NCBI GenBank assembly: GCA_000827205.1 | Contig: KN832563.1 | Coordinates: 1,284,758 to 1,316,069, forward strand | Reading direction: 5' to 3' | Source: Plicaturopsis crispa FD-325 SS-3 | Lineage: Eukaryota; Basidiomycota; Agaricomycetes; Amylocorticiales; Amylocorticiaceae | DNA length: 31,312 bases | Shown here: in pieces, positions 5,099 to 26,764 of the stretch | Numbering within the stretch: position 1 is the stretch's first letter | Layout of the letters: every line of letters begins with the position of its first letter | The notes under the pieces: model-generated | The model's database searches: none | The model's input: the letters and a program-made list of their open reading frames with translations, nothing else | What the model was told of the DNA's origin: nothing | Position numbers and translations under genes: made by a program

Positions 5099-5099
5099 T

Positions 5100-5129
5100 A
5101 CGAGTCCTTAGTTTACTAAGGTAACTCGT
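5100..5129. repeat. Terminal hairpin of X
   Basis: The inner stem CCTTAGT/ACTAAGG with TT loop is flanked by the outer stem ACGAGT/ACTCGT with a 2-nt bulge. The same 30-nt hairpin is at 20132-20161 in Y, and the inner stem is in Z at 31235-31250. Confidence 0.85.
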
Positions 5130-5349
5130 TTATTTACTGGGACTTTTGCGCGTCAAATGGACTTGCAACGTTGAACCTTGCAAACCGTGGGAAAAAAAAT
5201 TGTATTGCTCGAGTCGAACCATAGTAAAATTGTAATGACCAAGCTGAACCACACTACATTCCAACCGAACCGCTATACAAAAAAATTGAACCATAGCACT
5301 GAATTCTAATGGTCAAATTGAACCATACAAAAAGTGATTTTCCAATAGG

Positions 5350-5387
5350 TCGAGTGTTCGAATCCCGTTGAAGGTAAACATTTTTTT
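5350..5387 (+). promoter_or_regulatory. Box-B-like motif with T-run in X
   Basis: TCGAGTGTTCGAATCCCGTTG resembles a tRNA T-arm and Pol III B box (GGTTCRANYCC) and is followed 14 nt later by seven Ts (5381-5387), a possible Pol III terminator. The equivalent region of Y (about 20378-20418) and the reverse strand of Z (about 30980-31000) keep it. I see no good A box upstream. Confidence 0.35.
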
Positions 5388-5529
5388 GCCAATAACAATC
5401 GTGATAGTAATACAGCATGCTGCCCCACAATCATAGCTACACTAATGGCCCTCCGTCTTGAGATAATGTATGCATTACCACTTATGAGAAGGAAAGAACA
5501 TAGTGTTAGAGAGGCGATAGTAGCTGCAC

Positions 5530-7270
5530 CACATTGACTCACCACATGCGTGTCGGGTCGTTAGCTTTATCAAGTCGGATCTGCCAAAGAAGGTCCACAT
5601 TTTTTTAAAAAATGTGGTTTGGTGCGTGCACTAGGTAAATTAATACTGCGTGCTAAAAGCAAAATATGTGTGAAAGGCTACCCGTGTTTCGCTACATTTG
5701 AGCCAGGAATTAAGGGAATACATGAAATATTGAGAGAGATAAAAGCAACACAAACAAAATCTACTGATTGGATGATTCTGAGAGAACCACTTGACCGCTC
5801 GCAAAACCGCGAATGAGGGCGTTGAGCACTATATTAGGGCTTTCTATTGAACCTTGGTTTGAACGATTCCGACAAGTATTCATTGTATCAGACAGGGTAC
5901 AAGCAAATTTACGGCGGATGTTCTCCCAGGGTAATTACGTAACCAGAGATCCGCGGCCGGGGCACCCAAAAAGCGCGAAATGAGGGCTTTCCAACGCATC
6001 CGCGGTCGAAATATTCGAGCCAATATTGGCTGAGATATAAGCAAAACGGTAAAAACATCGGATGAAGTCTTTTAATTGCTAGGCCCACCGTTGATCCGCA
6101 CGATCGATGTCGTCACGAAAGCGACACATTTGGAAATGTCACTTTCCTGACGACATCGATCGTGCGGATCTCCTATAGCAGTCACATGCGGATGTTCAAC
6201 CCCTGCCTCAATTTTTGCTGTTTTGCCTATATCTCGGTGAATACCAGCCCGAATATTTCGACCCCGGGTGCGTTAGAAAGCCCTCATTTCGCGCTTTCTG
6301 GAGGCTCCCTTCGCGGATGTGCAGGTTACGTAATTGCCTCGCGAGATCACCCACTGCGAATTTGCTCGTACCCCTTCTAACACAATGAATACTGGTCAGA
6401 AAGCTTCAACCCAGAGCTCGATAGAAAGCCCTGATATAGTGCTCAATGCCCACATCTGCGGTTTTGCGCGCGGTGAAGTAGATCTCTCAAAATCACCTAA
6501 TCAGTAGATTTTACTTGTTTTGCTCATATCTTTATCAATTCTTCACGGATTCTATCGATCCATAGCTCGGATTCAAGGCACAGACGTGTGCTGTCTGGCA
6601 GTAATTTTTGTTTGAATTGCGCAGCCGAACTGGTGCACGCACAGGCCAAAGTGCAAAAATGCGGGTGAAGTGCGGGTCGTCCACCCGCATCACCTGACTT
6701 GTGGCTTAACGGGGAAATTTGCACGAATGGCTGTATTGCTTATATCTCAGCCAATACTGGCTCAAATTCTTCGACCCCGGATGCGTTAGAAAGCCCTCGC
6801 TTTGTGCTTTCTGGACGTTTCTACCACGGATCTGCTCATTATGTAATTGCCTTGCAATATCGTCCATTGCAAGTAAAACAGATACAATTCACTGATTGGA
6901 TGATTTTCGGAGAACCGCTTCACCGCTCGCAAATCTATAGAAATGGGCATTGAGCCCTATATTGGGGCTGTCTGATGACTCCTGGTTCAAAGGATTCCAA
7001 CAGATATCCATTGTGGAAGAGAGGGTAGAAGAAAATTTATCTCACCCTCAATATTTCACGGATCCCCTTGATTCATAGCTCAGATTCAGCTGCAAGCCCG
7101 TGGCGTTCCACACATATTTTAGTCGGAGTATGCACTATCAATGTGCCTGCTGCACAGACCAATCTGCACTTTTTTCAAAAAATGCGGACCTACTTGGGTT
7201 AATCCAACTTGACGAGCTGGCGACCCGACCCGCATGTGGCAGGATCAATGTGGGCTTCCCTTAGATTTTC
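5530..7270. repeat. Alternating inverted modules inside X
   Basis: The body of X is built from diverged copies of one module in alternating orientation: forward about 5530-6090, reverse about 6173-6690, forward about 6715-7000, reverse about 7020-7270. A marker of the module is GTTAGAAAGCCCTC (for example 6270-6283 and 6786-6799). The first two copies form a long imperfect palindrome with arms near 450-500 bp around the central hairpin. The same plan is present in Y, and diverged direct copies are in Z. No coding potential was recognised. Confidence 0.65.
6093..6170. repeat. Central hairpin of X
   Basis: Perfect 23-bp inverted arms (6093-6115 and 6148-6170) flank further partial pairing (GAAAG/CTTTC, GACA/TGTC). 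In Y the same place holds only a 22-bp perfect palindrome (21125-21146), 56 bp shorter. Confidence 0.85.
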
Positions 7271-7318
7271 TTTTGTTATTGAACTGATAGTACTATCTCA
7301 ACATCCATGTCAATAAAA

Positions 7319-7400
7319 GGTGTCATGGCTCAGTTGGTTTAAGCGCTGCTATAATCTATAGCTCTCGTAAAAGACCCTGGGTTCGATTCTCAGCAAGGCA
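7319..7400 (+). ncRNA. tRNA-like sequence with Pol III A and B boxes in X
   Basis: Box A TGGCTCAGTTGG (7326-7337) and box B GGTTCGATTCT (7380-7390) match the tRNA promoter consensus at normal spacing. The T-arm pairs well (CTGGG/CTCAG), the D-arm partly. The acceptor and anticodon stems do not pair, so this is tRNA-derived, as in a SINE head, not a working tRNA. A nearly identical copy is in Y at 26374-26455. Confidence 0.6.
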
Positions 7401-7709
7401 TTTCTTTCCTATAGACTAGAATTCTGGTTTTCAGCCACCTAAGGACAGTAGCACTCTTTTGACCAAGAGTAGCGACCAGTGCCTGAAGCTGTGATTGATT
7501 CTGAGTTCATCCTTGGTAATTAATTAGAGTCTGATTCATCAAGATAATCTGTTATACATATACAGCAAACCACTTATGTGGCTTTGCTGCTGGTCATCTA
7601 TCTACCATTATCTAAATACAGTACTGTGCTCAAGCTGGAATCTATACATGATCAGCAAAAATTAAGGACTCGTTTTTGCCGTGCAGAGCATCGGCCCTCT
7701 CCAGCAAGT

Positions 7710-9426
7710 GACAAGGGAGGCGAATACATATGAAACGCTTTTAACAAGTTTATGGATAATGCAGGGATTGTGCGACAGCACACTGTGCGCAATCGACCGC
7801 AGCAGAACGGCGTCGCTGAGAATGCAAATTGCGTTCTGTCTGACAGGCTCACTGCAATGCTTGCGGAGTCAAATCTGCCGCTCAGTTTCTGGGCTGAAGG
7901 CTTGTACGCTTTGACGCACGTCTGGAATCGCTGCCCCACTGCTGCTGTCGAGGGCGCTGTGCCTTACACGCGCTGGTGCAATCGCAAACCCAGTGTTGAC
8001 CATCTCCGTGTTTGGGGCTGCACTGCTTATGTGCATGTGCAGCGCGATAAGTGCAAAGGCCTTGGATCGCATATGGAGAAATGCGTGTTCATTGGCTATC
8101 CGGATGGCTACAAGGGCTGGCGGTTTTATAACCCGACCACAAAGCGCATAGTCATCTCAGAACGAGCTGATTTCGACGAGCGCTATTTCCCTGGCCTTAA
8201 ACGTTCTGCAACGAACGCTCCGGTTCCCGCTGCTCCTGCACCTGCAGCTGCGCATCTGCCCGCCGTTGAGCGCGACGTGTTTGCGCCAGGGGGATGACTC
8301 AGATCGCAATGATGATCTTGATCCTGGTGCAGCGCCGTTGCCTCGTAATCCGGCCGTAGATGCGCCTCCTCCGCTCTCTCCCTCGCCGCCTCACTCTCCT
8401 GCTCCATCCAGTCCCACCATTAAAGCTGAATCGTCGCCTTCCACTTCGTTCCGTCCTACTACGCGTTCTGCACCGTCTGCGCCGCCTAGACCGGGTGCTG
8501 CACAAGCTGGTCCGTCTCGGGCCAAGCTAAAGCCGCCTGGTGAGTGGTGGCGCATCCCAGCTCCGAAATTAACGATTTCTACGCCTCCCAAGACTCCGGA
8601 ATGGACTATGCATCGCGATCCCACTCCACATTTCGATGAAGAGGAGCCTGATGAGCCTAACCAGCCTGAAGCGCCTCCTCTGACGACGAGCTCGAGCTTA
8701 TGGACGCCACTGCTGAAACCATTGACCCAAATCCGGGCTCGCAGATTCAGCATCCTGCGGACTTCACCGGTGACGATTCCTTGAACATGTTCGAGGTTGA
8801 TTTCGCTTCTGCAGAATTTTCAGCGCTCAAAGCCGGCTTGTACGTCCATCCGCGGTCCTACAAAGATGCTATGAAGCGTTCGGAAGCTGCGCAGTGGCAT
8901 GCTGCGTCTCTGGACGAGATGAAAGCGCACTGGGCCAACGGGACTTGGGAGATCGTCAAGCTGCCAGCTGGTGCAAAGGCGATTCCTTCTGGTTGGGTTT
9001 ACCTGATCAAGAAGCGCGCGGATGGCTCTATTGAGCGCTACAAGGGTCGTCTCGTCGCAAAGGCGTATGGTCAACGTCCTGGACTTGATTATATTGATCT
9101 GTACGCTTCTACCCTGCGCAACGCGTCCCTGAGGCTTGCTTTGTCACTTGCTGCAATTGAGGATCTGCACCTGCACTCCATGGATATCTCCACCGCGTTT
9201 CTGAATGCGACGCTGCAGGAGGAGATCTACATGCGCCAGCCCGAGGGTTTCCACCAAGGGGGTCCTGACGATGTGTGCCGCTTGCGCAAATCCATCTATG
9301 GGTTGAAGCAGGCGCCTCGCGAGTGGAACAAGAAGCTGCACGCGACGCTGGCTACCATGGGCTTCAAACGGCTTGAATCGGATCACAGCCTCTATGTCTA
9401 TCAACGAGGTGAAGTCCGCACTATCC
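7710..9426 (+). pseudogene. Copia C pol fragment: integrase C-terminal half and N-terminal half of reverse transcriptase
   Basis: The integrase continues with DKGGEY, then QQNGVAEN (catalytic Glu region), SFWAEGLYALTHVWNRCP and the C-terminal GCTAYVHV..FIGYPDGYKGWRFY segment. A Pro/Ser-rich linker leads to the Copia reverse transcriptase (RVT_2): HPRSYKDAM, EAAQWHAASLDEM, GWVYLIKKRADGSIERYKGR, LHSMDISTAFLNATLQEEIYM, RLRKSIYGLKQAPREWNKKL. It is broken by an in-frame TGA at 7731-7733, a stop and frame change near 8297 and a return to the first frame near 8690. It ends at 9426, just before the expected YVDD active site, where LTR B begins. The Asp of STAFLN is present, but the enzyme cannot function. 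Confidence 0.9.
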
Positions 9427-9580
9427 TGTCAGAATAGGGGAGATAGGGGCGCAGACACTGACACAAAAAGAGACTGGATTGACACAGATGAGAAGGAAAA
9501 GAGACAAGTACGCTACTGATGAGCTGGCGATGTTTGTATCTATTTGGTCCTTGTGGCACCTGAGCAAACCAACTCCAACA
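9427..9580 (-). repeat. 3' LTR of B
   Basis: 154 bp. The plus-strand reading is TGTCAGAATAG to CTCCAACA. It directly interrupts the reverse transcriptase frame of C. Confidence 0.88.
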
Positions 9581-9599
9581 CTCCCACCTGCGAAGGTGA
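9581..9599 (-). promoter_or_regulatory. Hairpin and polypurine tract of B
   Basis: CTCCCACCTGCGAAGGTGA beside the LTR keeps the CACCT/AGGTG stem, the 4-nt loop and the GGTGGGAG purine tract of family A, although the LTRs themselves have diverged. Confidence 0.6.
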
Positions 9600-9663
9600 C
9601 ACAAGAACTCCCACCTAACCAAAACCAAAACCCAAACCAACTCCCACCGAATCGAAGAAGACC

Positions 9664-10683
9664 TCAGATGAGGCGCAGCGCATTGACGTATGCCGAGTCA
9701 AAGTCAGGCGGTGAATCACGGCGACGATGGCTAGACTGGGCAAGACCGGCAGTCTCGGTGCGACGAGAACGACGAGGAGGAGGGGTAGGCGAGCGAGACC
9801 AAGAGGGGGAACGAGAACGAGAGTGATGAGCCTGATGAGCACGACCGGGACGGCGACTAGGAGAGCGAGAATGAGGAGGAGACGCATGAGACATCACCCA
9901 ATCCCTGATGTTGGCCGGCATATTGAACATGCAGCGTGCCGCACGATGGCCCTTGCGACCACAGCGATGACAGGCACCATCTGCGGTAGGGTCGCACCAG
10001 CGGACACCCTCAGCATCAATGGGCTCGGATGAGCGAGAGCCACCCTTCTCTTTGAAGCGAGCGGTATAGAGGGCAATCTCCTCCTCCTGCTGCTTGATGG
10101 TGATGCCGTCATCAGCAGAGTCAGAAGACGGATGGGGGGCAGACGAGTTGGAGGTGAGGAGCGCCTTCACTTGGGCAAGGGAAGGCTCAGTGGACTGGGC
10201 GAGGATAGTGGTGCGAAGGGTGGAGAAAGAGGAGTGGAGATTTATGAGGAGGACGTCCTTGAACTCGCCATCCTCAATTTTGCACCCAAGAGAGCACAAC
10301 TTTTCCTTCACAGCGGTCAGCGACTGGATGTAGAGTGCGATGGGAAGAGCCGGATTGTGAACGATACCGTAAAACTCCTTCCTCGCTGTCATTCGATGAC
10401 CCATCGTAGACCGCTCAAAGTGCTCCTGCAACGCCTTCCACGCATCAACAGCAGACTCCTTTCCGACCACCAAAAACTGCCACTCCTTGCCAACCTTCAT
10501 CCAGATATATGGCACCAAACCCGCATCCAAACCCACAGCCGTAGGCTTATCACCTTTGGTTATCCCACCAGCACCATTCGCCATCAAAAACATCTTCATC
10601 TCATCCTTCCACGTGAACCAGTTCTGGTCCGTAAGCGTTGGGACATTTGAGAGGATAGCGACAGAGCCGGATTGGATAGACAT
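9664..10683 (-). CDS. Gag protein of element B
   Basis: This Gag of 339 residues is homologous to that of A2 along its length (NWFTWKDEMKMFLMANGAGG, AVDAWKALQEHFERSTM, EFKDVLLINLHSSF). The zinc knuckle is CHRCGRKGHRAARC. The C-terminal tail is rich in Arg, Ser and Pro and ends VNALRLI. The frame is open to 10761, but MSIQSG at 10683 matches the start chosen in A2. It is intact by inspection. The element has no enzyme genes, so the role would be assembly of particles that borrow integrase and reverse transcriptase from an autonomous Copia element. Confidence 0.88.
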   Translation of the reverse strand: MSIQSGSVAILSNVPTLTDQNWFTWKDEMKMFLMANGAGGITKGDKPTAVGLDAGLVPYIWMKVGKEWQFLVVGKESAVDAWKALQEHFERSTMGHRMTARKEFYGIVHNPALPIALYIQSLTAVKEKLCSLGCKIEDGEFKDVLLINLHSSFSTLRTTILAQSTEPSLAQVKALLTSNSSAPHPSSDSADDGITIKQQEEEIALYTARFKEKGGSRSSEPIDAEGVRWCDPTADGACHRCGRKGHRAARCMFNMPANIRDWVMSHASPPHSRSPSRRPGRAHQAHHSRSRSPSWSRSPTPPPRRSRRTETAGLAQSSHRRRDSPPDFDSAYVNALRLI

Positions 10684-10824
10684 GATGATGGTTGATAGAG
10701 GGAGATCGAGGGGATAGAGCGCAAGAAATGAATAAGGACAGTTGTGATCAAGAGCGATCAACAGCGATCAGTGGAGATCTGAGAAGATCTAAGAAAAGCA
10801 GCGGTATATAGCGACTAGAAACAA

Positions 10825-10842
10825 GCACAAGGGCTCATAACC
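10825..10842 (-). promoter_or_regulatory. Primer binding site of B, half initiator tRNA type
   Basis: Minus-strand GGTTATGAGCCCTTGTGC directly follows the LTR. The first 12 bases are identical to the A2 site and complementary to the anticodon arm of initiator tRNA-Met. Confidence 0.75.
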
Positions 10843-10996
10843 TGTCAGAATAAGGGAGATGGGGGCGCGCACACAGACACAAAAAGAGACTGGATTGACA
10901 CAGATGAGGAGGAAAAGAGACAAGTACGCTACTGATGAGCTGGCAATGTTTGTATCTATTTGGTCCTTGTGGCACCTGAGCAAACCAACTCCAACA
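10843..10996 (-). repeat. 5' LTR of B
   Basis: 154 bp, about 95 percent identical by eye to 9427-9580, a larger difference than between the A2 LTRs. Confidence 0.88.
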
Positions 10997-11077
10997 GAGC
11001 AGGTGGCTGACATCTTCACACAGCCCCTGCCTCGTCAGAAATTCCAGTGGTGCAGAAAACAGCTCGGAGTCGAGTAG
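10997..11077 (+). pseudogene. Copia C pol, extreme C-terminus
   Basis: The frame EQVADIFTQPLPRQKF, ending QLGVE and a TAG at 11075-11077, is the conserved end of Copia RNase H. It shows that the reverse transcriptase active site and most of RNase H, probably about 1 kb, are missing between 9426 and 10997, where element B now sits. Confidence 0.88.
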
Positions 11078-11317
11078 GCTGTCTCGGACTTTCTCTGTGC
11101 GCATTTCCCTTCATTTCACCACGGGCACTTTCTATTACTATACTGCTTTCTATTCTGCACTTTACATTTCGCTCATGGGCACTTTCTAATCTCTCTTGAC
11201 TTGATTTGGTTTCTATCACGGACTTTTGGACGCTTTCCTGCTTTTCTGATTCCTTTGCTTTCATTCTGATTCGCATTTTTGCATTTTCGATTTGAAGACA
11301 CATCGGATTAGGGGGGG
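11078..11317 (+). other. 3' untranslated region and polypurine tract of Copia C
   Basis: A T-rich non-coding stretch follows the pol stop and ends in AGGGGGGG (11310-11317), a typical Copia polypurine tract. The 3' LTR should follow directly but is displaced by a solo family-A LTR. Confidence 0.65.
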
Positions 11318-11494
11318 TGTTGAGATCGGACACTGAGAGAGCAGCAGAGGGCACAGACACGGACACAGAACGAGCGATGATGATAGCAAGTGGTCAGAGC
11401 GAAATACAGGAGAGCGGAATATGTATCTCCGATGTATGCTACTGTTTGGTCTAGCAGCTCGGCCTCAGCCACCTGAGCACAACACACTCCAACA
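11318..11494 (-). repeat. Solo LTR of family A, TSD GGGGG
   Basis: One family-A LTR (177 bp, TGTTGAGATC to CTCCAACA on plus) without internal sequence, flanked by GGGGG at 11313-11317 and 11495-11499. It split the polypurine tract of C. Recombination between the two LTRs of a former full insertion is the usual origin. Confidence 0.85.
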
Positions 11495-11500
11495 GGGGGG

Positions 11501-11530
11501 TGTTACAGTCTGTGTTTGATACTTATCCTC
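11501..11530 (+). repeat. Start of the 3' LTR of Copia C
   Basis: TGTTACAGTCTGTG begins directly after the G-run. The sequence is cut after TCCTC (11526-11530) by element A3 and resumes at 13680. Confidence 0.6.
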
Positions 11531-11699
11531 TGTTAGAGTGTGTTGTGCTCAGGTGGCTGAGGCTGAGCTGCTGGACCAAACAGTAGCATACATCGGAGAT
11601 ACATAAGTCCGATCTCCTCTTACCATCTGCTATCATCATCACTCATTCTGTGTCTGTGTCTGTGCCCCTCTGCTGCTCTCTCAGTGTCCAATCTCAACA
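11531..11699 (+). repeat. 5' LTR of A3
   Basis: 169 bp, beginning TGTTAGAGTG and ending TCTCAACA. It lacks 10 bp present in the 3' copy. Confidence 0.88.
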
Positions 11700-11716
11700 G
11701 GTTATGAGCCTCCGTG
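11700..11716 (+). promoter_or_regulatory. Primer binding site of A3
   Basis: GGTTATGAGCCTCCGTG directly after the LTR is the same half initiator tRNA site as in A2 with one change. Confidence 0.7.
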
Positions 11717-11916
11717 CTTGATTACACCCAAAAGTCGCCACTACTCCGCCCTGATCCCCTCTGATCTTCACAGATCTGCTCCGATTTTGCTGATTTGCTT
11801 TGATCGCTGTTGATCGCGCCTGTCCCTATAGTTTTACCCTTCTCCTCGACGCTCTACCCCTCCGATCTACACCAATCTACCCTCGATCTATTCCAATCTT
11901 TCACTATTCCCCTGCA

Positions 11917-12515
11917 TTGTCTATTCAGACCGGTTCCAGCTCGTTGCTTGCTGCGATCCCTGCGCTCTCGGACACAAATTGGATCGTTTGGAAGAAGGGT
12001 ATGCGCATGTTCTTGCTCGCAAACAGTGCTGGGGGCGTGCTAGACGGCGTTGCCCCAAAGCAGGAGGGCTTGGATGGTACGCTCTTGCCCTTCATTTGGT
12101 CCAAGATCGCTCTGGAGTGGCAGTTTTTGGTGGAGGATGCTGTGGGTGCTGTGGCCACTTGGAAAGCGCTGCAAGCGCATTTCGAGAAGTCCACCATGTC
12201 TAATCGTCTTGCTGCGCGCCAGGCGCTGTACAGCGTCATCCATGATCCCCAGCAGCCGGTTTCGCTTTATGTGCAGTCCCTCACCGCTGCTCGCGCCAAG
12301 CTGGATGCTCTGGGCGTCAAAATCGATGATCAGGAGTTCAAGGACGTCCTGCTGATGCGCCTCGACGATTCCTTTGATTCCCTGCGCACCACTATCCTTG
12401 CTCAATCTCCTGAGCCCGATCTTGCACGCATTTTGTCTCTGCTCACCTCGTCTGCGCTCTCCGGGTTGTTTGCATCCGCGGTGAAGGGGGAGGAGTCTGA
12501 GACTGCGCTCTACAG
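11917..12515 (+). pseudogene. Gag of A3, truncated and without its ATG
   Basis: The sequence matches A2 Gag from SIQTGSSSLLAAIPALSD through the helical region to EESETALYS, then is cut by LTR B. The codon at the chosen family start is TTG instead of ATG. The frame is open upstream to an ATG at 11800, so an N-terminally extended product is conceivable. The zinc knuckle is lost or hidden. Confidence 0.85.
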
Positions 12516-12628
12516 TGTTGGAGTTGGTTTGCTCAGGTGCCACAAGGACCAAATAGATACAAACAGTGCCAGCTCATCAGTAGCATACTTGTCTCTTTTC
12601 CCCCTCATCTGTGTCAATCCAGTCTCTT
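12516..12628 (+). repeat. LTR of a second family-B element, running into the gap
   Basis: Begins TGTTGGAGTTGGTTTGC and matches the reverse complement of the LTRs at 9427 and 10843. It interrupts gag of A3. The rest is not assembled. Confidence 0.85.
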
Positions 12629-13489
12629 NNNNNNNNNNNNNNNNNNNNNNNNNNNNNNNNNNNNNNNNNNNNNNNNNNNNNNNNNNNNNNNNNNNNNNNN
12701 NNNNNNNNNNNNNNNNNNNNNNNNNNNNNNNNNNNNNNNNNNNNNNNNNNNNNNNNNNNNNNNNNNNNNNNNNNNNNNNNNNNNNNNNNNNNNNNNNNNN
12801 NNNNNNNNNNNNNNNNNNNNNNNNNNNNNNNNNNNNNNNNNNNNNNNNNNNNNNNNNNNNNNNNNNNNNNNNNNNNNNNNNNNNNNNNNNNNNNNNNNNN
12901 NNNNNNNNNNNNNNNNNNNNNNNNNNNNNNNNNNNNNNNNNNNNNNNNNNNNNNNNNNNNNNNNNNNNNNNNNNNNNNNNNNNNNNNNNNNNNNNNNNNN
13001 NNNNNNNNNNNNNNNNNNNNNNNNNNNNNNNNNNNNNNNNNNNNNNNNNNNNNNNNNNNNNNNNNNNNNNNNNNNNNNNNNNNNNNNNNNNNNNNNNNNN
13101 NNNNNNNNNNNNNNNNNNNNNNNNNNNNNNNNNNNNNNNNNNNNNNNNNNNNNNNNNNNNNNNNNNNNNNNNNNNNNNNNNNNNNNNNNNNNNNNNNNNN
13201 NNNNNNNNNNNNNNNNNNNNNNNNNNNNNNNNNNNNNNNNNNNNNNNNNNNNNNNNNNNNNNNNNNNNNNNNNNNNNNNNNNNNNNNNNNNNNNNNNNNN
13301 NNNNNNNNNNNNNNNNNNNNNNNNNNNNNNNNNNNNNNNNNNNNNNNNNNNNNNNNNNNNNNNNNNNNNNNNNNNNNNNNNNNNNNNNNNNNNNNNNNNN
13401 NNNNNNNNNNNNNNNNNNNNNNNNNNNNNNNNNNNNNNNNNNNNNNNNNNNNNNNNNNNNNNNNNNNNNNNNNNNNNNNNNNNNNNNNN
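12629..13489. other. Assembly gap (Ns)
   Basis: 861 unknown bases. The flanks (LTR B on the left, the end of A3 on the right) imply the gap holds the rest of the B insertion and the end of A3 gag. Its real size is unknown. Confidence 0.99.
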
Positions 13490-13495
13490 TGGGAG

Positions 13496-13674
13496 TGTTG
13501 GAGTGTGTTGTGCTCAGGTGGCTGAGGCTGAGCTGCTGGACCAAACAGTAGCATACATTGGAGATACATAAGTCCGATCTCTTGTATTCCACTCTTACCA
13601 TCTGCTATCATCATCACTCATTCTGAGTCTGTGTCTGTGCCCCTCTGCTGCTCTCTCAGTGTCCAATCTCAACA
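13496..13674 (+). repeat. 3' LTR of A3
   Basis: 179 bp, TGTTGGAGTG to TCTCAACA, followed by the TCCTC duplication. Confidence 0.88.
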
Positions 13675-13679
13675 TCCTC

Positions 13680-13940
13680 GAGTCTTCTCTTTCTTTGTTT
13701 ACCTCGCTTTGGCTGGACAGGCCAGCCACTCTGTCCGGTTTCCGCTCCGCTCTATTTGTTTCTGTTTGTACCTTACTTTACAAAAGCGGAGTCCGAAGTT
13801 CTCACTCTCTTCAGTGACTTACTTCGGACTCCAGGTTAGTGTTTAGCCATATCTCAATATATAGTGACTTACTTCGGACTCCAGCTGTCTGATACTATAA
13901 GTTATCTCATCCAGCAAGTGTCTAGTCCGTTCTGGTGCAG
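13680..13940 (+). repeat. Remainder of the Copia C 3' LTR with a hairpin; end not resolved
   Basis: The sequence continues the LTR interrupted at 11530. It holds GGAGTCCGAAGT (13788-13799) paired with ACTTCGGACTCC (13821-13832), and a second direct copy of GTGACTTACTTCGGACTCC ending at 13882. I cannot fix the LTR end because no 5' LTR is available for comparison. Confidence 0.45.
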
Positions 13941-13941
13941 T

Positions 13942-14151
13942 TCACACTGCAATAGATAACTCGACAGCAATGTCTCCATCATCTACATCACCATCGTATT
14001 CTCCGAGAAGCTGGGCCTCTAAGGCTGCCTCGGCCTCCTTGAGTTTGGATTCTGACTTTTGTAATGCTAAGATCTTCTCCACGGCTATCTTCCCTTTATT
14101 TTTCACACTATTCAGTGACTTAAGGACATTCAATGTGCTCACCCAGTGCAA
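13942..14151 (-). pseudogene. Coiled-coil fragment, possibly a detached 3' exon
   Basis: About 68 codons with a heptad-like pattern rich in Lys, Glu, Ala and Leu (KIAVEKILALQKSESKLK) and an acidic tail (EYDGDVDDGDIAVE). There is no ATG and no clear splice acceptor. It lies downstream of the minus-strand gene at 15349-16503, which also ends in a coiled coil and has a GTATGC donor-like sequence near its stop. It may therefore be a last exon separated by the tandem arrays, but this is a guess. Confidence 0.4.
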
Positions 14152-14337
14152 ATTAAGGGTGTTTCAATATGCTTATCCACAGCTGGGCCGAGTTTTTTCG
14201 GCACATTCAATGTGGTGGGCCGATTACATTCAATGTACTCGGCCCAGTTCTTATAGTAATAGCGGAATAGCCAGTCAGTTGTATAGCAATCAGTAACCTT
14301 TGATCTCCCACTAAAACACCTAGGCCATATATATTTT
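14152..14337. other. AT-rich spacer with degenerate copies of the next repeat
   Basis: Scattered motifs such as TTCAATGTACTCGGCCCA and TTCAATGTGGTGGGCC resemble the 43-bp unit that follows. No gene is seen. Confidence 0.5.
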
Positions 14338-14635: not shown

Positions 14636-14721
14636 TGAGGACCCCCAGAAATGACACCTCACATATCCATGCCCATATATCCCATAGTGCAAATGGTCTC
14701 CCACATCGATTGGGTCTCAAT

Positions 14722-15190: not shown

Positions 15191-15348
15191 AATCCCCGGC
15201 GCAGGCTCAATGAAATGCAGCATTCCCGCAACATTCTCAATCTCCGCCGAAGCATATTTCAATCCTTACTACGATTATCAATGTCGCCGAAATGTCGCCA
15301 ATAATCAACAATCAATGTTTGCAAAAACTTGAAGAGTACATGGGCCCA

Positions 15349-16710: not shown

Positions 16711-19404
16711 ATGAACTTCGACAAAGTCCAGAGTCATCTGTATGTCCTTGGATATCGAGTCCAAGGAGCATTAGCGCGATACAACAGGCCGATCCTCTTG
16801 ACGCCACAATCCGGACCCTGGGCCAGATCGCCGTAAGTCTGATCTTGTTATTTTTTGACCAAAGTCATTCCTAACCCAACTTCAGGTCGACGCGGTGGAT
16901 GTTATGAGGCAAAACCCCATGGCCCCTCAGCTGCACAATGTCCTACACTGGCCTCGCCACCTGCTCAGCGTGTTTGCAGACGCTACCGCGCAGGGCTTCC
17001 CTCCCCAAGGTCTTCCTTCCGTCCACCCCCGGAACGTCAGCCCCAACGATCCCCGCATCCAAACCATGCCATAATACAGGGCTAGAGGAGAGACCCCTCC
17101 TCCTGGGAATGACGGTCAGCCCACTCGCTGCCAGCCCTCACGCGGCCAAAAGCCAAAGGCGCCTACGACCAGCAAGTCAAACCCACCTCCGCCAATGCCG
17201 AAGCCCACCAGCCGCCGGCGTTCGAAAACTCCCACTTCACGGGAGATCATTGAAAACAGCGACGAGGAGCAGCCACCCCTGGTGAAACAAACACCGAAGA
17301 TCACCCCCCGTAAACCCATCCTCGACGATGGTGACGCCCACACGTCTCAAGACAATACAGGCAACAAAGAGCCTCGGGGCCGTACCATGGATAGGAAGGG
17401 CAAGGGCAGAGGCAAAGCAAGCCCGCCGGCAGATAGCGATCCTGTTGCGACTCCGGCGCAGCCCACCGCTGTCAAACGGCGGCGTTCAGCATCCGCAGCA
17501 TCGACAAGGAGCATGTGCAGTCGTGCCATGTCCAGGGAATCTACGGCCGCCCCTGACGTTGAAGACGACTCCGACAAGAGCGACACGTCGGACATGATTG
17601 TGGTAAGCCAAACCTCACCGTTCTTCCACAATTTGACTAACATGATTTCCACAGCGTCCCCGCTGCGGCTGGTGCAAGAGCAAGGGCATAGCTTGTGTTG
17701 AGCACCAGGGAGGCAAAGCATGCGAGGCATGCTATCTTCGCAAGGCAAAATGTGACACCCTGTTCCCCTCGAAGTCCAAGAAACGGGCAAGGAAAAAGCC
17801 AAAAAAATCGGCGCTAAAGTCGAACATCCAAACCACAACCCCTGCCGCCGCCGGATCGCAAACCAGCATCAAAATCCGGCTTTCGAGACCTCGCTTGGTC
17901 TCGCGTGGGCCGACACCGGGGCCTTCTGGCCACCACCATGAAGAATCCCGTCCACCCACCACCACACCGCAACCCCAGAACCACGCCCCACCACAAAAAA
18001 CCAAGGTTGGCCCTCCGCAAGGGGTAAAGCGTCCACGCGTTGCCGATGGAAATGTTCGACCGAGATCGAACATGGAGGTAGTCGGTGCGTTGCATTTCTT
18101 GTGTTCAACTTCGTGCTTAACTCAGTCTGTAGTTCAAGTGCCACAGCTACGCCCACCCACCCCCCGCACCGCGGATACCAAACCCTCAACCAACCTGGAG
18201 GCCACGGAGGATTGCCCACTGCTTAATCCGCTCCCTCAGGGCACCCAGTGATCAAGACATGGAGGACGTATCGCGCCTCGCGAACGACGACGCCGAAGAC
18301 CGGCCCAACAACAACCCGGGCGACAATGCCAAACGGCCAACCCTCGTCAACACCGCAAACGTCGAAGGCGGAGCCTCGGCCCCAATTTGTGCCCGGTTCG
18401 CCCATCTACATTGACGTAGAACGTTTGGTGACTCCACCATCTCCACCAACTGCTGCCCCCCAGGTTCAAAAGCCACCCATTGTACCTCTCCGCGACTCCG
18501 CCGCCTCGTCTTCCAACAACGCCGCCGGTTCCTCTTCCCACAGCGCCGCCGCCGCAGCTCTCCTCAACGCCGCCACCGCATCTCTCAGAAACGCCGCCCC
18601 CGCATCCCATCCTGCGCAGCCATCACCACCTGCCATGACAACCACATCAGTTCCTCCACCCGTCGAGAGTGTGCCCCCTCAGCAAACGTCACCTGAGTCG
18701 AACTCAGCCGATTTGTCGCATCACCTCAAGACAATCATTGAGGCTCAAGTCCATCAAGTCATGGGCCCATACATCACGGCCGCCTCCACCACAGGGACTA
18801 CGGCCTCTGCAGTCCAAAATGAAGGTCTTGTCGCGCTACAGGAAGCCCAGAGGTTGGTCCACCATGCGGAGGCGACCGAGGAGCGCATCACGAACATGGT
18901 CGAGCAAGCCCTTCAAGAGATGCGAGCCATTGCGGAAAGGCTTCAAAGCGGGGATGTGGATCCTACCCTCTTGGAGCGAACTCTGCCTCACCTGTTGCGA
19001 CAGGTACAAATCGCTGGAGATACATCACCGCCGCCGGCCCCGTCTTCCCCGACTTCCCGTCCCGCGACCACTCGCTCCCTGGCCACCCCACTCCGACTTC
19101 ATTCCATGGCCGGCCCACTCCATCCTCCCCTCACCCGTCGCCGACGCATACCGTCATCACTTGCGAGGCCTCTGAGCGAGTTGCACAGGATCTAGACGAA
19201 GCTTTGGCCGCAGCGAAGCAGTCCCGCTCCATGCTGCCCCCGAATGTTACCGATGCCCCGCCACCCGTGGACATGATCTTTCAGTCGTCCCACCCCGCAA
19301 ACATCCCCTCGTCATCGGCAGCCCCGACGGACCAGCCTGCTGCGGAGGTCACCGGTGGTGAGGAAAGCATGGACATTGAGACTTTGGGCACGGAGGCGAA
19401 CTAA
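16711..19404 (+). pseudogene. Broken multi-exon gene with a Zn2Cys6-like cluster
   Basis: Inferred exons are 16711-16739, 16775-16832, 16886-17602, 17655-18077 and 18133-19404. The introns are 35, 53, 52 and 55 nt, and the first four exons stay in frame. The N-terminal domain (ADPLDATIRTLGQIA, then PMAPQLHNVLHWPRHLLSVF) is followed by a basic, Pro/Ser-rich linker. Exon 4 starts with CGWCKSKGIAC, then CEACYLRKAKC, spacing C-x2-C-x6-C-x8-C-x2-C-x6-C, that of fungal Zn2Cys6 DNA-binding clusters, though here it is internal. A Pro/Ala-rich and then helical region (LVALQEAQRLVHHAEATEER) and an acidic end follow. Damage: in-frame TAA at 17072-17074, a frame change near 18382 at a C-run and another near 19005. 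A DNA-binding role is inference from spacing only. Confidence 0.55.
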
Positions 19405-19781
19405 TGTGCTGGACGTTGTCTTGTCATCTTGTTTAACATATTCTTGCTATCTAGTTGTATATATCTAGCACTTGAATGCTTGGCCATACACTCCAACGGG
19501 TGCAAAATACAGCACATGTAACCAAATCACCGGGGCAAGAACACACCCCTTATCAATCTTAGTAACCCTCCGCAAGCGTCAGCCGTACGACACGACCTTG
19601 AACTTTCGCTGTGTCATCAAGACCCCTGGAGGCAAGCTCGTCTACCCCCACATCAAAAAGCTCCCGACTTTGCACCCAGTAATATCTCCACAAGTAACAA
19701 AATCGGTGCCGGTCACAAAATCACCGTAGATAACAAAATCACCGCAAGCATCACCATGTTGCAAAACACGACAACTAGCAT
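19405..19781. other. Non-coding spacer with a captured gene fragment and short repeats
   Basis: Apart from the eL34 fragment at 19563-19676, it holds four imperfect copies of AACAAAATCACCG (near 19520, 19698, 19714 and 19730) that bracket the fragment. Confidence 0.5.
19563..19676 (+). pseudogene. Fragment of ribosomal protein eL34 gene (one exon)
   Basis: The frame VTLRKRQPYDTT, then KTPGGKLVYPHIKKLPT matches the conserved N-terminus of eukaryotic ribosomal protein eL34 (RPL34), which normally reads like MAQRVT-RKRQPYNTTSN-RR-V-KTPGGKL. The usual N-terminal MAQR is missing, and the fragment starts directly after an intron-like end (TCAATCTTAG). Several unusual residues (YDTT, FRC, YPH) point to decay. 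The zinc-binding Cys motifs further along are absent. Retention of a splice border suggests capture at the DNA level rather than by retrotransposition. Confidence 0.7.
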
Positions 19782-20129
19782 TTACATGGGATAATTGACC
19801 TTGGCGTTGTCAAACAACCATCTTGCTTGCTGCGCAAACTTGGACCACATGGAACCTTGCCGTGCAGCATAGGCCGCCGCTCCGCTCTTTTCTTCCTGCA
19901 ACGCCTTTTGTGTGCGCTCAACCCAAAGTTTGCCCTGGTGACGAAAATACCGCAATGTCCAATCCATCTCGCTCCATACAAGCTGAAATTCCTCCTCCCA
20001 TCGGTCGGCCCTGGCTTTAGCCTTCAGCCAATGCACCCTGTAGACTGGCAACAGATGTTAGAAATTTATAAAATCATGGAAAATTAAAGGCGGGACTTGC
20101 GCTGCTTCATGAAATCGTTGTTCTGCATG
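19782..20129 (-). pseudogene. C-terminal part of a transposon-type protein (KDZ-like, tentative), downstream of insertion Y
   Basis: Exons 20129-20101 and 20044-19782 are separated by a 56-nt intron with a GC donor (GCAAGT..CCAG). They encode QNNDFMKQ, then YRVHWLKAKARADRWEEE, DWTLRYF and AYAARQGSMWSKFAQQA before a stop. From memory this resembles the C-terminal tail of proteins linked to KDZ transposons in Agaricomycetes; the family name is uncertain. The frame continues the one that stops at 26765 on the other side of Y: joining them places Q-D-M-Q across the insertion point in one frame. Confidence 0.55.
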
Positions 20130-20131
20130 TT

Positions 20132-20161
20132 ACGAGTCCTTAGTTTACTAAGGTAACTCGT
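20132..20161. repeat. Terminal hairpin of Y
   Basis: Identical to the 30-nt hairpin at 5100-5129: ACGAGT/ACTCGT outer and CCTTAGT/ACTAAGG inner stems. Confidence 0.85.
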
Positions 20162-21124
20162 TTATTTACTAGGACTTTTGCGCGTCAAATGGACTTGCAA
20201 TGTTGAACCTTGCAAACCGTGGGGAAAAAAATTGTATTGCCTGAGTCGAACCATAGTAAAGTTGTAATGACCAGGCCAAACCACATTACATTCCAACTGA
20301 ACCGCTATACAAAAAAACCAAACCATAGCACTAAATTCTAATGTCCAAATTGAACCATACAAAATGCAATTCTCCAACAGGTCGAGCGTTCAAATCCCGT
20401 TGCAGGTAAACTTTTTTTCTCACCGTCAACGATAGTTATAATAATACAGAATGCCATGATTGTAGGTAGGCTAATAATCCTCTGTCTTGAGATAACACAA
20501 GCATAGCCACTGTTGACAAGGAAAGAGCATAGTATAAAGAGTTTGATAGCAGTAGCACCACATTGATCCCGCTACATGCGGCTCGGGTCGTGGGCTTTGT
20601 CAAGTTCGGATCAATCAAAGTAGGTCCGCATTTTTAAAAGAAATGTGGTTTGGTCTGCGCAGCAGGCAAATTGAGGGTGTGCGCTGCGATCAAAATGTGT
20701 GTGGAAAGACAATGGCCAGCAGCTGAATCTGAGCCATGCATCAAGAGAATCCGTGAAGGATTGATAAAGATATGAGCAAAACAAGTAAAATCTACTGATT
20801 AGGTGATTTTGAGAGATCTACTTGACCAATAGCCAAACCGCAGATGTGGGCATTGAGCACTATATCAGGGCTTTCTATCGAGCCCTAGGTCGAAGCATTC
20901 CGACCAGTATTTATTGTATTAGAAGGGGTACAAGCAAATTTGCGGCGGGTATTTTCGTGAGGCAATTACGTAATCTGCACATCCGCAAAGGGAGCGCCCA
21001 GAAAGCGCGAAATAAGGGCTTCCCAACGCACCCGGGGTCGGAATATCCGAGCCAATATTGGCTGAGATATAAGCAAAACAGTAAAAACATCAGATGAAGT
21101 CTTTTAATTGCTAGGCCCACCGTT

Positions 21125-21146
21125 GATCCGCACGATCGTGCGGATC
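21125..21146. repeat. Short central palindrome of Y
   Basis: A 22-bp perfect palindrome (GATCCGCACGA/TCGTGCGGATC) at the centre of the long inverted repeat, where X has a 78-bp hairpin. Confidence 0.85.
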
Positions 21147-21393
21147 TCCTATACCAGTCACAAGCGGGTGTTCAACCCCTGGCTCAATTTTTGCTGTTTT
21201 GCCTATATCTCGGTGAATACTAGCCCAAAAATTTAAACCTCGGGTGCGTTGGAAAGCCCTCATTTCGCGCTTTCTGGACGCTCCCATCGCGGGTGTGCAG
21301 GTTACGTAATTGCCTCGCGAGATCACCCACCGCAAACTTGCTCGTACCCCTTCTAGCACAATGAAGAGTGGTCGGAATGCTTTGACCTAGGGC

Positions 21394-24300
21394 TAAAGTT
21401 GCCGTTGTTCGGTCCAGGTCCGGTTCAGGCAGTTTTGCGATGCTCGTGGACCCGAACTCGAAAATTTTGGGGGGGGTCACAGTGAACCTGAACCCAAACT
21501 TGGGTCCAGCAGAGGTCCGGTCCAGATAAGTCCGGTCCAGGTTCGCACCGGGTTCAAACCGATTTTTTTGTCAAATAAGAGAAAACGGCACGTAGATTAC
21601 GACGAAGACATTTCCGACAGTACAGCAACCTGAATAGCAGTATCCTCGTCCCATCGTTTCTTCTCCGCTGCTCGCTGGGCCTTTTTCAAGAGCCGGAGAC
21701 GGTTCCGCTCGCGTTTGAAACGTGCCTTTGTTGTCTGCAAAGCCTCGAATGTCGAAGGAAGCAGTCGGCTGCGCCGCTTGGTATCCGTAAGTCCAGCATC
21801 TGAGAACGCACGCTCACATGGCACCGACGAGCCCTGGATAGCGAGGTAGTCACGAGCCATGCGACTCATGATTGGGTAGCGATAGCTGTTTGCCTGTGAA
21901 GAACGAGAATGAAGTAAATGAGCTACCACATCTCAAACTCTGCACAAACACGAGCAATACGTACCTTCCACCAGGCAAGGATACCCAGCATGACATTCTC
22001 ACCGGAGAACTCAAAAAGGTCCTCCGTCAAGTAAAGCTCGAGCTCAGCGCGAGCATCTTTTGTTGTGTTCTGTTCACGTGTGCGGCGTCCTGCCGTCGCT
22101 TGAGCCAGGCGATCCGCAGCGTATCCTCCAGTCACTCTCGACTGCGTAGGCTCCGAGGACTGCGGGACGACTGGGGCAGCGGGTGTTGGATGCGACGCAT
22201 GGTACTTATCGAACTGTGTATGAACAATGAGTCTGTAAATCGGATGTAACTGGAAGAAGACTCACCGCCTTCTCAAGGACTGTCCGTGCATAAATCTGGC
22301 CGTCGGGATCCCAGAACGCGGTGAAATACTCCATCTTTATGCACGGGTTGAGGACTGCACCGTAGTCCAAGTTAGAATATGAGTCAATAAGCAAACGAGG
22401 AAGATGACAGGCTTACCGAGATTCACAATGTGTGCGGAAGAGTTGTCGGTCTTGTTGTAATATTTCTCTAGCGTCTCGACACCCACGAGGATGGCCTTTT
22501 TCAACGGCGCCATGTCCTCACGCTCAGACATCACCTTCCAGTCGGCAATGAACTGCTCATAACCAGGGAGGATCCGCCACACGCAGGGCACGGTCTCCGA
22601 CGAGAACTGCTCTTGTACGCATGAAGCGGTCTGCAGGGATCATGCCGAGATTAGTAGAATGTAATAACATTAGATGTAGACCGTCTAGCACCTACCTCCA
22701 AGACCTCGTGAATCAGTCCGATGATTTTCCACTCCGCCGACGAGAATCTGTATGAGGTGTACGTTGGCTGGCCCTTGTCAACGTTCGGGACCTCGTCCGA
22801 GTCGTCGGCTTGATTGATAAACGACATTATTGCCTGCAACAAGAAGACGTCAATCCAAGTGATCTCGCATGCAAATAGGAAGCGCACCTTCTTTAGAACC
22901 AGAAGCCTTCCGAGGACGCCGCCCCATGACCCCCACCGGGTCTTGCAGTATGGTAGCAGCTCCAGAAGTGCAACGGCCGCATCTGCGCAGCATTTCTTGA
23001 AAAAAGCCTTTGCTTGGGGTGAGCGTCGGACCTGAGACTCGTTAGACGACAGTAAGCGCCTGTAGTTGAGAAGAAAGACTTACCTTTGCAATAAAACCCC
23101 AAATCTTCAAAAGAAGAGATGCCAGAAGACCTGCTTCCGACGAATCAGCCGGAAGACCCGCGAGTGCCAATTCTACCTCCCTCAGAAGTGCCTCGACCTC
23201 TTCCTCGGTTTCCTCGTCGTCGTTTATCTCCCCGGACGACGTTTCAGCAGGGGGTGCCACAATCGGCACTACCTCATCTTGTCCCGTAGCCAGATTTGTC
23301 TTCGTTTTCTTGGGTGATAATGCCCTGAGAAAAGCACCCTTGCCGAGGGCGACCGCGTGCGAGAAACAGCTTGAAACATACCGGCCGGTGTGAGCTGTAT
23401 CACGGACACATATGCTAGAAGCACTTACTGCGACCGTTGTTCCTTGGCGTCGAACGCAACTTTGTCGGCTCTTAGGAGTTTCCCGAGCTCGCGCAATCCT
23501 TTATCGTTGACAGTGACATTGTCAGCGGTTATGTTCCCAATCTGCGAGTATTATTAGTCCATAGCGACACATCTTAACAGTCAAATTTGAGTGCACTTAC
23601 CTTGTCGAGAATCCCGTATTTCTTCAGAATATCATACAGTACCCTGCCCGTGTTCTCACCGCTATGACTTCCCTCCATCTCAGAGAATGACAACAGCTCA
23701 GTCCGCATTTCCCACTCATCAGTGATCCAGTGGCAAGTGACGGCGAGGTACGCGGTCATGATTGCCGACGTCCAGCCATCGAATGTGTGCGAAATGAGGC
23801 CGGGGGCACTCTTAAGCTCGGCCTTGAGCTCAGCACCGATTTCTTCCGCGCAAGCAATGATCGACTCAGTCATTTTTGTGCGATGCGGGACATCGGACTC
23901 CTTCATCTTCGGACGCTGATAGAAGAGCAGCTCCCGGAAGGCGTCATGATCAACGATTGACGTCGCCTGGTATTTGGGATGAATCAGTACAACGAAGTTC
24001 ATCTCTCTAAGCTCAGATGCGGTGACTTGCTCACCTGGTTTGTTTCCGCGATAAAATGACGCAGCTTATCTTCGAGACCATCCTTTGACCACTCGACGGG
24101 CTTGTCTTGTACACTGAGGAACTCGGATATAGATTGCTGTCTAGTACAGGTGAGTAAGCCACATACTCGAGCATTCAAATACTGAAAATGTGTGTTACCT
24201 CTCGACCGTATCGTCGGCCACATCTTTAGCACCGGCCAGGCGTTCTCGCTCTTCCTCGGGCACGGCACGCTCGTTCATCGGGATTTTTCTCGCATGACAC

Positions 24301-25474
24301 CGGTCACGATAGGGAGCATAGTGACTCATCCCGGCTCGTGCAATGTGCGTACGCATCGTTGTGTTATTACCCTTGAAACGTGTTTTGATTTTGCCGTATT
24401 TTGGATAATTGCTTGCCTTGAGTGCACTAGAACATATGGTGGTCAGTGCATTTACACCAGAAGCTGTCGTCTCCGAGTCGACCCTGACCACAGAAACTTA
24501 CACGCAGATTGAACACTCCCATTCCTCCTCGCCCATATCATCTTCCGCTACCGTGCATACCGTCAGGATATCTGCCGCTGCATCCTTCTTCTTGCGCGTG
24601 TTCTTCTTATCGGCCTGGGCAACAATCTCGTCGATATCGATGGCATCGGGATCCGAGTCGTCGTCCAAGGTGCGTGTATCAGAGGCCCGGCCTGTACCGC
24701 TGTTCGATGCAGGTACCGCTGATTTTTTGCCGCTCCCCGATGGCTGCGCTGAGGTGGCCTGCGATGGAAAAAGAAGCCTTTGAGTTGCCCTCGGTTTGGG
24801 AATCGATTTCCCTTTCGAGGTTGTCGCCGTTGACCTCGAGGTAGCTTTGCTGCCGGTAGCCTTGCGCTTCGGAGGCTGCTGACTTCCTGAGTTGGACGTG
24901 TTCCGGGTACGCTTCTTCTTCACAGGCTGCCCTTGCGCGTCAAACTGCTCTAACACGATTTCCATGCTTGCAGGCGCACCGTTGGTCACAGGAGTAAACA
25001 CCGGTGCTGGAGAGTCACGGTCTTCGCTCCATTCCATGTTGTCTGCATCCTTAAGGGTGCCATCTGGATTGTTAGCAGGACCGGGAGGTTTGTCCATAGT
25101 GCAGTGAGGCTAGCAGATGGGAACGGTGTAAACGGCCCTCAACCTGAGCACCAGCGGAATGTTCTGGGCTATGATATTTTTGCGTACTTCATAATTTAAG
25201 TTCATTGAAGCCACGAGCTACATCCTCTGAGTAACCTAACTGCTCTTGGAACTCGAATATACGCTGACCATGATACACCTGGAAAAAATGGGTTCACGGT
25301 TTGGTCCAGGTCCGAACGGGTCCGACAAAGGTTCGGAAATTACAGCGCGCCGCTGAACTCGAACCTGACTACCGTTGAACCCATCATGGACCCCACCGCT
25401 GGTGACCGGACCTTGGTCAAGTTCAAGGTTCGAACCTGGTCCGCCGGGTTCTGAACCGAACAACGGCAACTTTA
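21394..25474 (-). mobile_element. Complete hAT transposon, 20-bp TIRs, 8-bp TSD CCTAGGGC
   Basis: This 4081-bp element has perfect 20-bp terminal inverted repeats TAAAGTTGCCGTTGTTCGGT (21394-21413 and reverse at 25455-25474). It is flanked by CCTAGGGC at 21386-21393 and 25475-25482, the 8-bp duplication diagnostic of hAT. Element X shows the corresponding empty site (CCCAGAGC, about 6412-6419). Subterminal regions carry repeated GGTCCGG/GGTCCAG motifs, likely transposase binding sites. With an intact transposase gene it may be, or recently have been, active. Confidence 0.95.
21597..25097 (-). CDS. hAT transposase, 12 exons, apparently intact
   Basis: Inferred exons: 25097-24502, 24426-24199, 24140-24035, 23966-23601, 23541-23429, 23369-23084, 23031-22888, 22833-22696, 22630-22417, 22354-22266, 22213-21965 and 21893-21597. 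The 11 GT-AG introns are 52-75 nt, and the exons sum to 2826 nt, 941 codons plus stop. Residues 1-190 are a Ser/Lys-rich low-complexity region. A BED-type zinc finger follows (ECSIC near 193-197, then MRTHIARAGMSH). The RNase H-like core shows HTFDGWTSA (Asp near 373), ITADN (Asp near 439) and CFSH (near 471-474). The C-terminus has the hAT dimerisation region (AWWK, then YPIMSRMARDYLAI, SSVPCERAFS, near 840-875). ATG at 25097 is the first in frame. No stop or frameshift is seen. Confidence 0.9.
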
Positions 25475-26373
25475 CCTAGGGCTCGATAGAAAGCCCTGAT
25501 ATAGTGCTCAATGCCCACATCTGCGGTTTTGCGAGTGGTCAAGTAGGTCTCTCAAAATCACCTAATCAGTATATTTCAGTTGTTTTGCTTCAATTCTTCA
25601 CGGATTCTATCGATCCTTAGCTCGGATTCAAGGCACAGATGTGTGCTGTCTGGCAGTAATTTTTGTTTGAATTGCGCAGCGGAACTGGTGCACGCACAGG
25701 CCAAAGTGCAAAAATGCGGGTGAAGTGTGGGTCGTCCACCCGCATCACGTGACTTGTGGCTTAATGGGGAAATTTGCTCAAATGGCTATATTGCTTATAT
25801 CTCAGCCAATACCAGCTCAAATGCTTCGACCCCGGATGCGTTAGAAAGCCCTCGCTTTGCGCTTTCTGGACATTTCCACCGCGGATGTGTTGATTATGTA
25901 ATTGCTTCGTGATATTGTCTATCACAAATTTTCTTGTACTCTCTCTTCCACAATGAATATCTGTTAGAATCGTTTGAACCAGGAGTCATCAGACAGCCTC
26001 GATATAGAGCTCAATGTCCATTTCTATAGATTTGTGAGCGGTGAAGGGGTTCTACCACAATCATCCCATCAGTGAATTTTATCTGTTTTACTTATCTCAC
26101 CCTCAATATTTCACGGATTCCCTTGATTTATAGCTCAGATTCAGCTGCAGGCCAGTGGCGTTCCGCACATATTTTGGTCGGAGTATGCACTATCAATGTG
26201 CCTGCTGCACAGACCAATCTGCCCTTTTTCAAAAATAAGGACATACTTGGGTTGATCCAATTTGACAAAGCCAGCAACCCGACCCGCATGGTCGCAGGAT
26301 CAATACGGGCTTCCCTTAGCTTTTCTTTTGTTATTGAACTGATAGTACTATCTCAACATCCATGTCAATAAAA

Positions 26374-26455
26374 GGTGTCATGGCTCAGTTGGTTTAAGCA
26401 CTGCTATAATCTATAGCTCTCATGAAAGACCCTGGGTTCGATTCTCAGCAAGGCA
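26374..26455 (+). ncRNA. tRNA-like sequence in Y
   Basis: It is a near-identical copy of 7319-7400 with the same A and B boxes, so the segment is a fixed part of the X/Y family rather than an independent insertion in one copy. Confidence 0.6.
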
Positions 26456-26764
26456 TTTCTTTCCTATAGACTAGAATTCTGGTTTTCAGCCACCTAAGGA
26501 CAGTAGCGCTCTTTTGACCAAGAGTAGTGGCCAGTGCCTGAAGCTGTGATTGATTCTGAGTTTGTCCTTGGTAATTAATTAGAGTCTGATTTATCAAGAT
26601 AATCTGTTATACATATACAGCAAACCACTTTTGTGACTTTGCCGCTGGTCATCTATCTACCATTATCTAAACACATTACTGTGCTCAAGCTGGAATCTAT
26701 ACATGACCAGCAAAAATTAAGGACTTGTTTTTGCCGTGCAGAGCATCGGCCCTCTCCAGCAAGT

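Follow-up and report, generated by a model that had tools for sequence, protein, structure and literature searches.

What class of transposable element enters a gene without duplicating its target and without an evident coding sequence of its own, and which enzyme moves it, are the questions raised by the window analysed here, a stretch of 31,312 nucleotides (nt) at the very end of a contig (C10:1284758-1316069) in the genome (33.2 Mb, 49 contigs) of Plicaturopsis crispa FD-325 SS-3. The window contains two elements, X and Y, and the 5' part of a third, Z, which are very probably non-autonomous Helitron2-like rolling-circle transposons moved by the Rep-helicase of an autonomous relative, most likely the one encoded at C3:796014-804159 (-). 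A first-pass annotation had described the three as one hairpin-ended family and suggested Helitron2/Helentron-like insertion by an unknown driver. Insertion of the Helitron2 type is well supported by the terminal structure, the lack of a target duplication and a Rep-helicase frame directly before a family 3' terminus. No description of exactly this family was found in the open-licence literature; repeat databases were not searched.

Shared borders of the family

X and Y have both borders in common, as the first-pass annotation had claimed, and they share 91% identity across the first 289 bases and 94% across the last 675. A 24-base 5' pattern and a 34-base 3' pattern, each allowed up to three mismatches, match the window at three (X, Y and Z) and two (X and Y) places, respectively, with a mean of 0.00 for either pattern in 100 shuffles. 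Across the genome they identify 23 5' ends and 27 3' ends, while the reversed patterns used as controls give 0 for each; a second 5' pattern (up to three mismatches, genome-wide) adds no 5' end to those already known. All 23 5' places and 23 of the 27 3' ends were read with their flanks, the 5' hairpin and position -2 being scored over 22 5' ends and position -1 over 23.

By the convention adopted here, an element runs TTACGAG...CAAG and the target T is counted on its right. Because one border T is ambiguous, TACGAG...CAAGT is an equally valid description, and this T is the single ambiguous base that had been noted at each junction of X and Y (Table 1). The start of X, previously placed at 5099, lies one base earlier, where the TT begins. 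The 5' end is TTAC in 22 of 23 cases, and the 3' end is CAAG followed by T in 22 of 23. The copies whose borders were read start and stop at the same base within differing flanks, and the other end positions that the annotation had named as a check on its boundaries did not appear. Two places are exceptions: C5:1415, an inner body piece whose hairpin is found at C5:2058-2081, separated by a 642-nt insert, and C6:1837557, where the 3' end is CAATA in place of CAAGT.

X was correctly reported to lack coding sequence, since its longest ATG frame has 64 amino acids, against a mean of 81 in 200 shuffles, and nothing in it exceeds chance. The extra length of Y is due to a hAT element nested inside it (Table 1).

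Insertion without target duplication

Precise insertion is demonstrated for X. Two Copia copies carry its site without the element: C45:24451-24602 (152 of 152 query bases, 97%) and C3:872403-872553 (151 of 152 query bases, 97%). These empty sites show that X entered ...CGCGA^TGACAAG... with nothing gained or lost except the ambiguous T. When the flanks of X are joined, the Copia frame reads ...KVFRD-DKGGEY, in agreement with the proposal that X splits a Copia integrase between FRD and DKGGEY. The element on C17 is inserted in a tandem array; once joined, its flanks align ungapped across the junction to a neighbouring repeat (GCGA^T). No target duplication of 2 bp or more, the other check named beforehand, was detected at the testable sites. 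A cut-and-paste DNA transposon was rejected, as the repeats are asymmetric and there is no duplication at X.

The gene interrupted by Y, both halves of which had been thought to stay in frame, bears this out in part: the minus-strand frame continues for 14 codons across the joined flanks and then meets a stop, and the next long open stretch is in another frame, perhaps beyond an intron. The open reading frame split by Y matches no Pfam family.

Of 23 5' ends, 21 have A or G directly before the border (p = 7e-5), and 19 of 22 have A or T at position -2. A purine at -1 together with A or T at -2 gives the target W-R^T.

Terminal structure and class assignment

Two nucleotides separate the border from the 5' hairpin, which has 9 or more pairs in 19 of 22 ends, the other three showing several changes; its length of 30 nt in X and Y is that reported earlier. 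Its 5' arm, ACGAGTCCTTA, reappears in inverted orientation as TAAGGACTCGT 35 nt before the 3' border. The annotation had recognized this inverted copy near the 3' end, but had put it at 37 nt and within the second hairpin, whereas it is 35 nt from CAAG and upstream of that hairpin. The short 3' hairpin follows right downstream of the inverted repeat, and all of its 7 pairs are intact in 22 of 23 ends. Its fourth pair is G-C in 11 ends, A-T in 11 and G-T in 1, and the G-C/A-T split tracks two 3' subfamilies. Because of this, the change from G-C to A-T may be one event, yet it is a true double change, and as such it supports use of the hairpin itself.

The published comparisons below refer to excerpts of the cited papers. 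Helitron2 elements are described as having two hairpins and a pair of inverted repeats. The 5' repeat is part of the 5' hairpin and lies 0-2 bp from the terminus, and the 3' repeat directly precedes the 3' hairpin, about 20-30 bp from its own terminus; the repeats are proposed to pair with each other, thereby opening the 5' hairpin and setting the endpoint of replication (PMC3627910, Bao and Jurka 2013). The present family shares with these elements the 5' repeat placed 2 nt from the border in a hairpin, the subterminal 3' repeat directly upstream of the 3' hairpin, the 5' T, the absence of a target duplication (in Helitron-1N1_CRe) and probably a Rep-helicase protein, while it differs in the distance of the 3' repeat (35 nt versus about 20-30), in the target (W-R^T versus TTTT^T/C) and in the other terminal letters. 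It thus has the structure by which Helitron2 is defined in that account, with a somewhat longer 3' tail, the class being assigned by structure and not by clade.

FoHeli1 and FoHeli2 of Fusarium oxysporum (PMC5148889, Chellapan 2016) likewise have a 5' hairpin arm that is inverted near the 3' end (there 38-51 bp upstream), hairpins at both ends, one ambiguous border T and non-autonomous copies; their ends are TCAG/ATTTT, in contrast to TTACGAG/CAAG, and their target is TNAT^A (A in the text, T in the figure legend) in place of W-R^T. HELPO1 and HELPO2 of Pleurotus ostreatus (PMC4289320, Castanera 2014) resemble the family in being fungal, in having a subterminal 3' hairpin, no duplication and non-autonomous copies, and probably also in their Rep-helicase and autonomous copies; a non-CTRR end (CTTG) is described for them as well. 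Unlike the family, they possess near-canonical ends, with T(C/G) at the 5' end and AT insertion, and the excerpted account mentions neither a 5' hairpin nor asymmetric inverted repeats.

The earlier statement that canonical Helitron ends are missing holds for Helitron1 (TC...CTRR), but the ends follow the published Helitron2 plan (PMC3627910, PMC5148889). A canonical Helitron1 family with decayed end motifs is very unlikely: R^T insertion without duplication, and CAAG followed by T, do recall the A^T and the CTRR followed by T of Helitron1, but the ends are TTAC and not TC, and CAAG and not CTRR, at the frequencies given above, and the hairpin of 19 of 22 5' ends contrasts with the lack of a 5' hairpin in Helitron1 as described in PMC3627910. 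Helitron1 in its canonical form was rejected on the same absence of 5'-TC and CTRR-3' and presence of the 5' hairpin.

A candidate Rep-helicase on contig C3

Matches to Helitron_like_N occur at 8 places in the genome. The one at C3:800905-801558 (-) is located within an open frame of 2715 codons, running from 804159 to a stop codon at 796014, which contains DUF6570, Helitron_like_N, PIF1 and AAA domains (Pfam scan of 2553 of the 2715 residues). An endonuclease domain is not among the matches in those 2553 residues, on which ground a Helentron was rejected; of the former Helitron2/Helentron suggestion, only the Helitron2 part is retained. In a comparison with solved structures, the helicase half alone has matches (PIF1 and related chains), and no Rep structure was matched.

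The 3' inverted repeat starts 20 nt after the stop codon, and TAAGGACTCGTTTATTGCCATGCGCAGCAGTGGCCCTCTTTAGCAAG followed by T ends at 795944. The last 34 nt show 0 mismatches to the family 3' pattern and are identical to the ends at C1:3804314, C1:3813393 and C3:773473. As the gene is upstream of this 3' end on the same strand, the element includes it, unless that end is a stray piece truncated on its 5' side. The C3 protein has a paralogue at C44:22003-27864 with 73% identity, and its longer matches to the other Rep-helicases show 28-32%. Judged from these sequences, the C3 Rep-helicase is a strong candidate for the driver of X and Y, and the earlier view of an unknown driver probably no longer holds.

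The Rep-helicase of the autonomous relative, be it the C3 protein or its C44 paralogue, would introduce a nick at the TT/hairpin of the 5' end, displace one strand via rolling-circle replication and recognize the 3' end through the inverted repeat, the hairpin and the terminal CAAG, and the product would be joined at a W-R^T site without duplication. A tyrosine-recombinase (Crypton- or Starship-like) element or an IS200/IS605-like single-strand element with hairpin ends is exceedingly improbable: hairpin ends and lack of duplication are described for IS200/IS605 too (PMC3627910), but a Rep-helicase is the sole coding sequence found directly next to a family terminus, no genome search for tyrosine recombinases having been made.

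An open frame of 396 codons is present upstream of the Rep-helicase on the opposite strand (C3:804313-805500), reaching the edge of the DNA read and matching no Pfam family. FoHelis have an extra open reading frame upstream of the transposase gene in opposite orientation (PMC5148889), and the C3 element may have one in this frame.

Observations at variance and alternative readings

Several observations weigh against a Helitron2-like family with its driver on C3. Counted by eye, no more than 15 of 23 3' ends carry the 3' inverted repeat unchanged, and its core GGACTCGT is present in 19 of 23. Of 8 joins of 7 elements compared with retrieved DNA, only that of C17 aligned across the junction. Genome-wide searches retrieved no empty copy of the site of Y or of the element at C3:773473, and the border of Y therefore rests more on the shared ends than on the split gene. 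At C1:3761055 and C33:4842 the right flank consists of internal sequence from another family copy, which makes both loci rearranged or nested and not clean single insertions. As for the driver, no family 5' terminus is present in the 1.3 kb read upstream of the C3 frame, and the next one found on the strand of that frame is at C3:837379, 41 kb away. The search for longer relatives with the same ends, which the annotation had proposed, has thus yielded a Rep-helicase with the same 3' end but not its 5' end, and the ends of the driver are only half shown. The stretch C3:803800-805500 is single copy in the genome, so that it offers no comparison by which the 5' border could be placed. Moreover, X and Y belong to the 3' subfamily with the G-C hairpin (CTCCAGCAAG), and the driver to that with the A-T hairpin (CTTTAGCAAG).

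The missing 5' end and the differing 3' subfamilies favour another account, in which the family belongs to Helitron2 and has a driver other than the C3 protein, a 5'-truncated family 3' end having landed just downstream of an unrelated Rep-helicase gene. This account has a small chance of being correct, as the gap between the stop codon and the 3' inverted repeat is only 20 nt long and the gene has the expected orientation. The probability that an end falls by chance within 100 bases, on the appropriate strand, is estimated at about 3e-4 (27 ends x 8 Rep-domain loci x 100 / (2 x 33.2 Mb)), a value that is too low because repeats cluster.

One giant Helitron2 of about 41 kb, comprising the Rep-helicase and about 33 kb of cargo, might alternatively stretch from the 5' end at C3:837379 to the 3' end at C3:795944, a size that would be unusual for the class. 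Similar same-strand pairings of 5' and 3' ends are seen on C6, over 30.7 kb, and on C10, where the pair extends over 49.7 kb and encloses X and Y. A giant element is quite improbable, since Z, which forms the 5' end of the C10 pair, resembles at 91-95% an element with a length of only 2195 nt by coordinates, and four long frames inside the C3 interval match no Pfam family.

Lineages and genomic distribution

In the Helitron2-like family as a whole, the first 125-290 bases are common to many copies and the interiors are less shared. An A-type 5' end is found in X, Y, C1:3757441, C1:3808208, C17, C33, C7, C36 and C5:8635, among which C17, C33 and C5:8635 have interiors of their own. A second group consists of Z, C6:11141, C1:3753173, C6:1868277, C6:1731680 and C3:865544, and a third of C18, C3:776328, C1:3805822 and C5:2081.

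The family ends are clustered at C1:3745-3814 kb, at C3:773-867 kb and near the contig ends of C5, C6, C7, C10 and C17, which are possibly centromere-like repeat islands or subtelomeres. Serial 3' ends on the same strand occur at C33:4153-5618, where a repeat of the last ~690 bases brings a second 3' end at a distance of 776 nt, and at C1:3800010-3801507, where three 3' ends fall within 1.5 kb on one strand; these could be due to read-through past an end or to later rearrangement. Family copies apparently inside family copies are seen at C6:1731555-1731680, C3:866142, C5:1415-2081 and C1:3761055. In the C5 case the 5' hairpin is split by the 642-nt insert, and the 3' end at C1:3761055 abuts another copy without its first ~35 nt.

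Features of the window

The features of X and Y are listed in Table 1.

Table 1. Coordinates of X, Y and their parts, as positions in the window.
Feature	Position	Strand	Basis or remark
Element X, complete non-autonomous Helitron2-like, 2611 nt	5098..7708	+	Inserted at A^T in Copia integrase; empty site in two Copia copies
X, 5' terminal hairpin, 30 nt; 5' arm holds the 5' asymmetric terminal inverted repeat ACGAGTCCTTA (5100-5110)	5100..5129	+	12 bp, z = -7.1 vs 200 mononucleotide shuffles
X, 3' asymmetric inverted repeat TAAGGACTCGT	7663..7673	+	35 nt inside 3' border
X, 3' subterminal hairpin GCCGTGC-aga-GCA-t-CGGC	7678..7695	+	Aligned 3' ends
X, target T, ambiguous, could equally count as element	7709..7709	+	Aligned flanks and empty sites
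Element Y, same family as X	20130..26763	+	Inserted at G^T; target T = 26764
Y, 5' terminal hairpin	20132..20161	+	12 bp, z = -6.7
Y, 3' inverted repeat TAAGGACTTGT, one change vs X	26718..26728	+	Aligned 3' ends
Y, 3' subterminal hairpin	26733..26750	+	Aligned 3' ends
hAT transposon nested in Y, foreign to the Helitron2-like family	21394..25474	-	8-bp duplication CCTAGGGC at 21386-21393 and 25475-25482; Dimer_Tnp_hAT 1.8e-14

The interior of X (5700-6568) is a large imperfect palindrome of repeated modules, with arms at 5700-5944 and 6324-6568, and related modules are also present in Y and other copies. A Pol III-like B box, GTTCGAATC, is located at 5356-5364, about 260 nt from the 5' end, and occurs in 4 of 7 elements scanned (X, C17, C3:776328 and C1:3805822), while a pair of A and B boxes is found near the 3' end of X and Y (7326-7389 in X). 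Despite these tRNA-like letters, no tRNA was detected by a tRNA finder in the window or by Rfam in 5000-7800. X has no match among phage records. A minus-strand DDE_3 transposase frame (4125-5069) adjoins the Copia integrase fragment split by X, and a run of 861 N (12629-13489) lies within a Copia-rich stretch.

Implications

The family belongs to a kind of transposon that is already known, and no new mechanism is opened by it. A single genome here contains a Helitron2-like family with verified borders, together with its two 3' subfamilies, several non-autonomous lineages and a probable autonomous partner. Its description is useful for repeat annotation, because tools built on the end motifs TC...CTRR would miss such a family.
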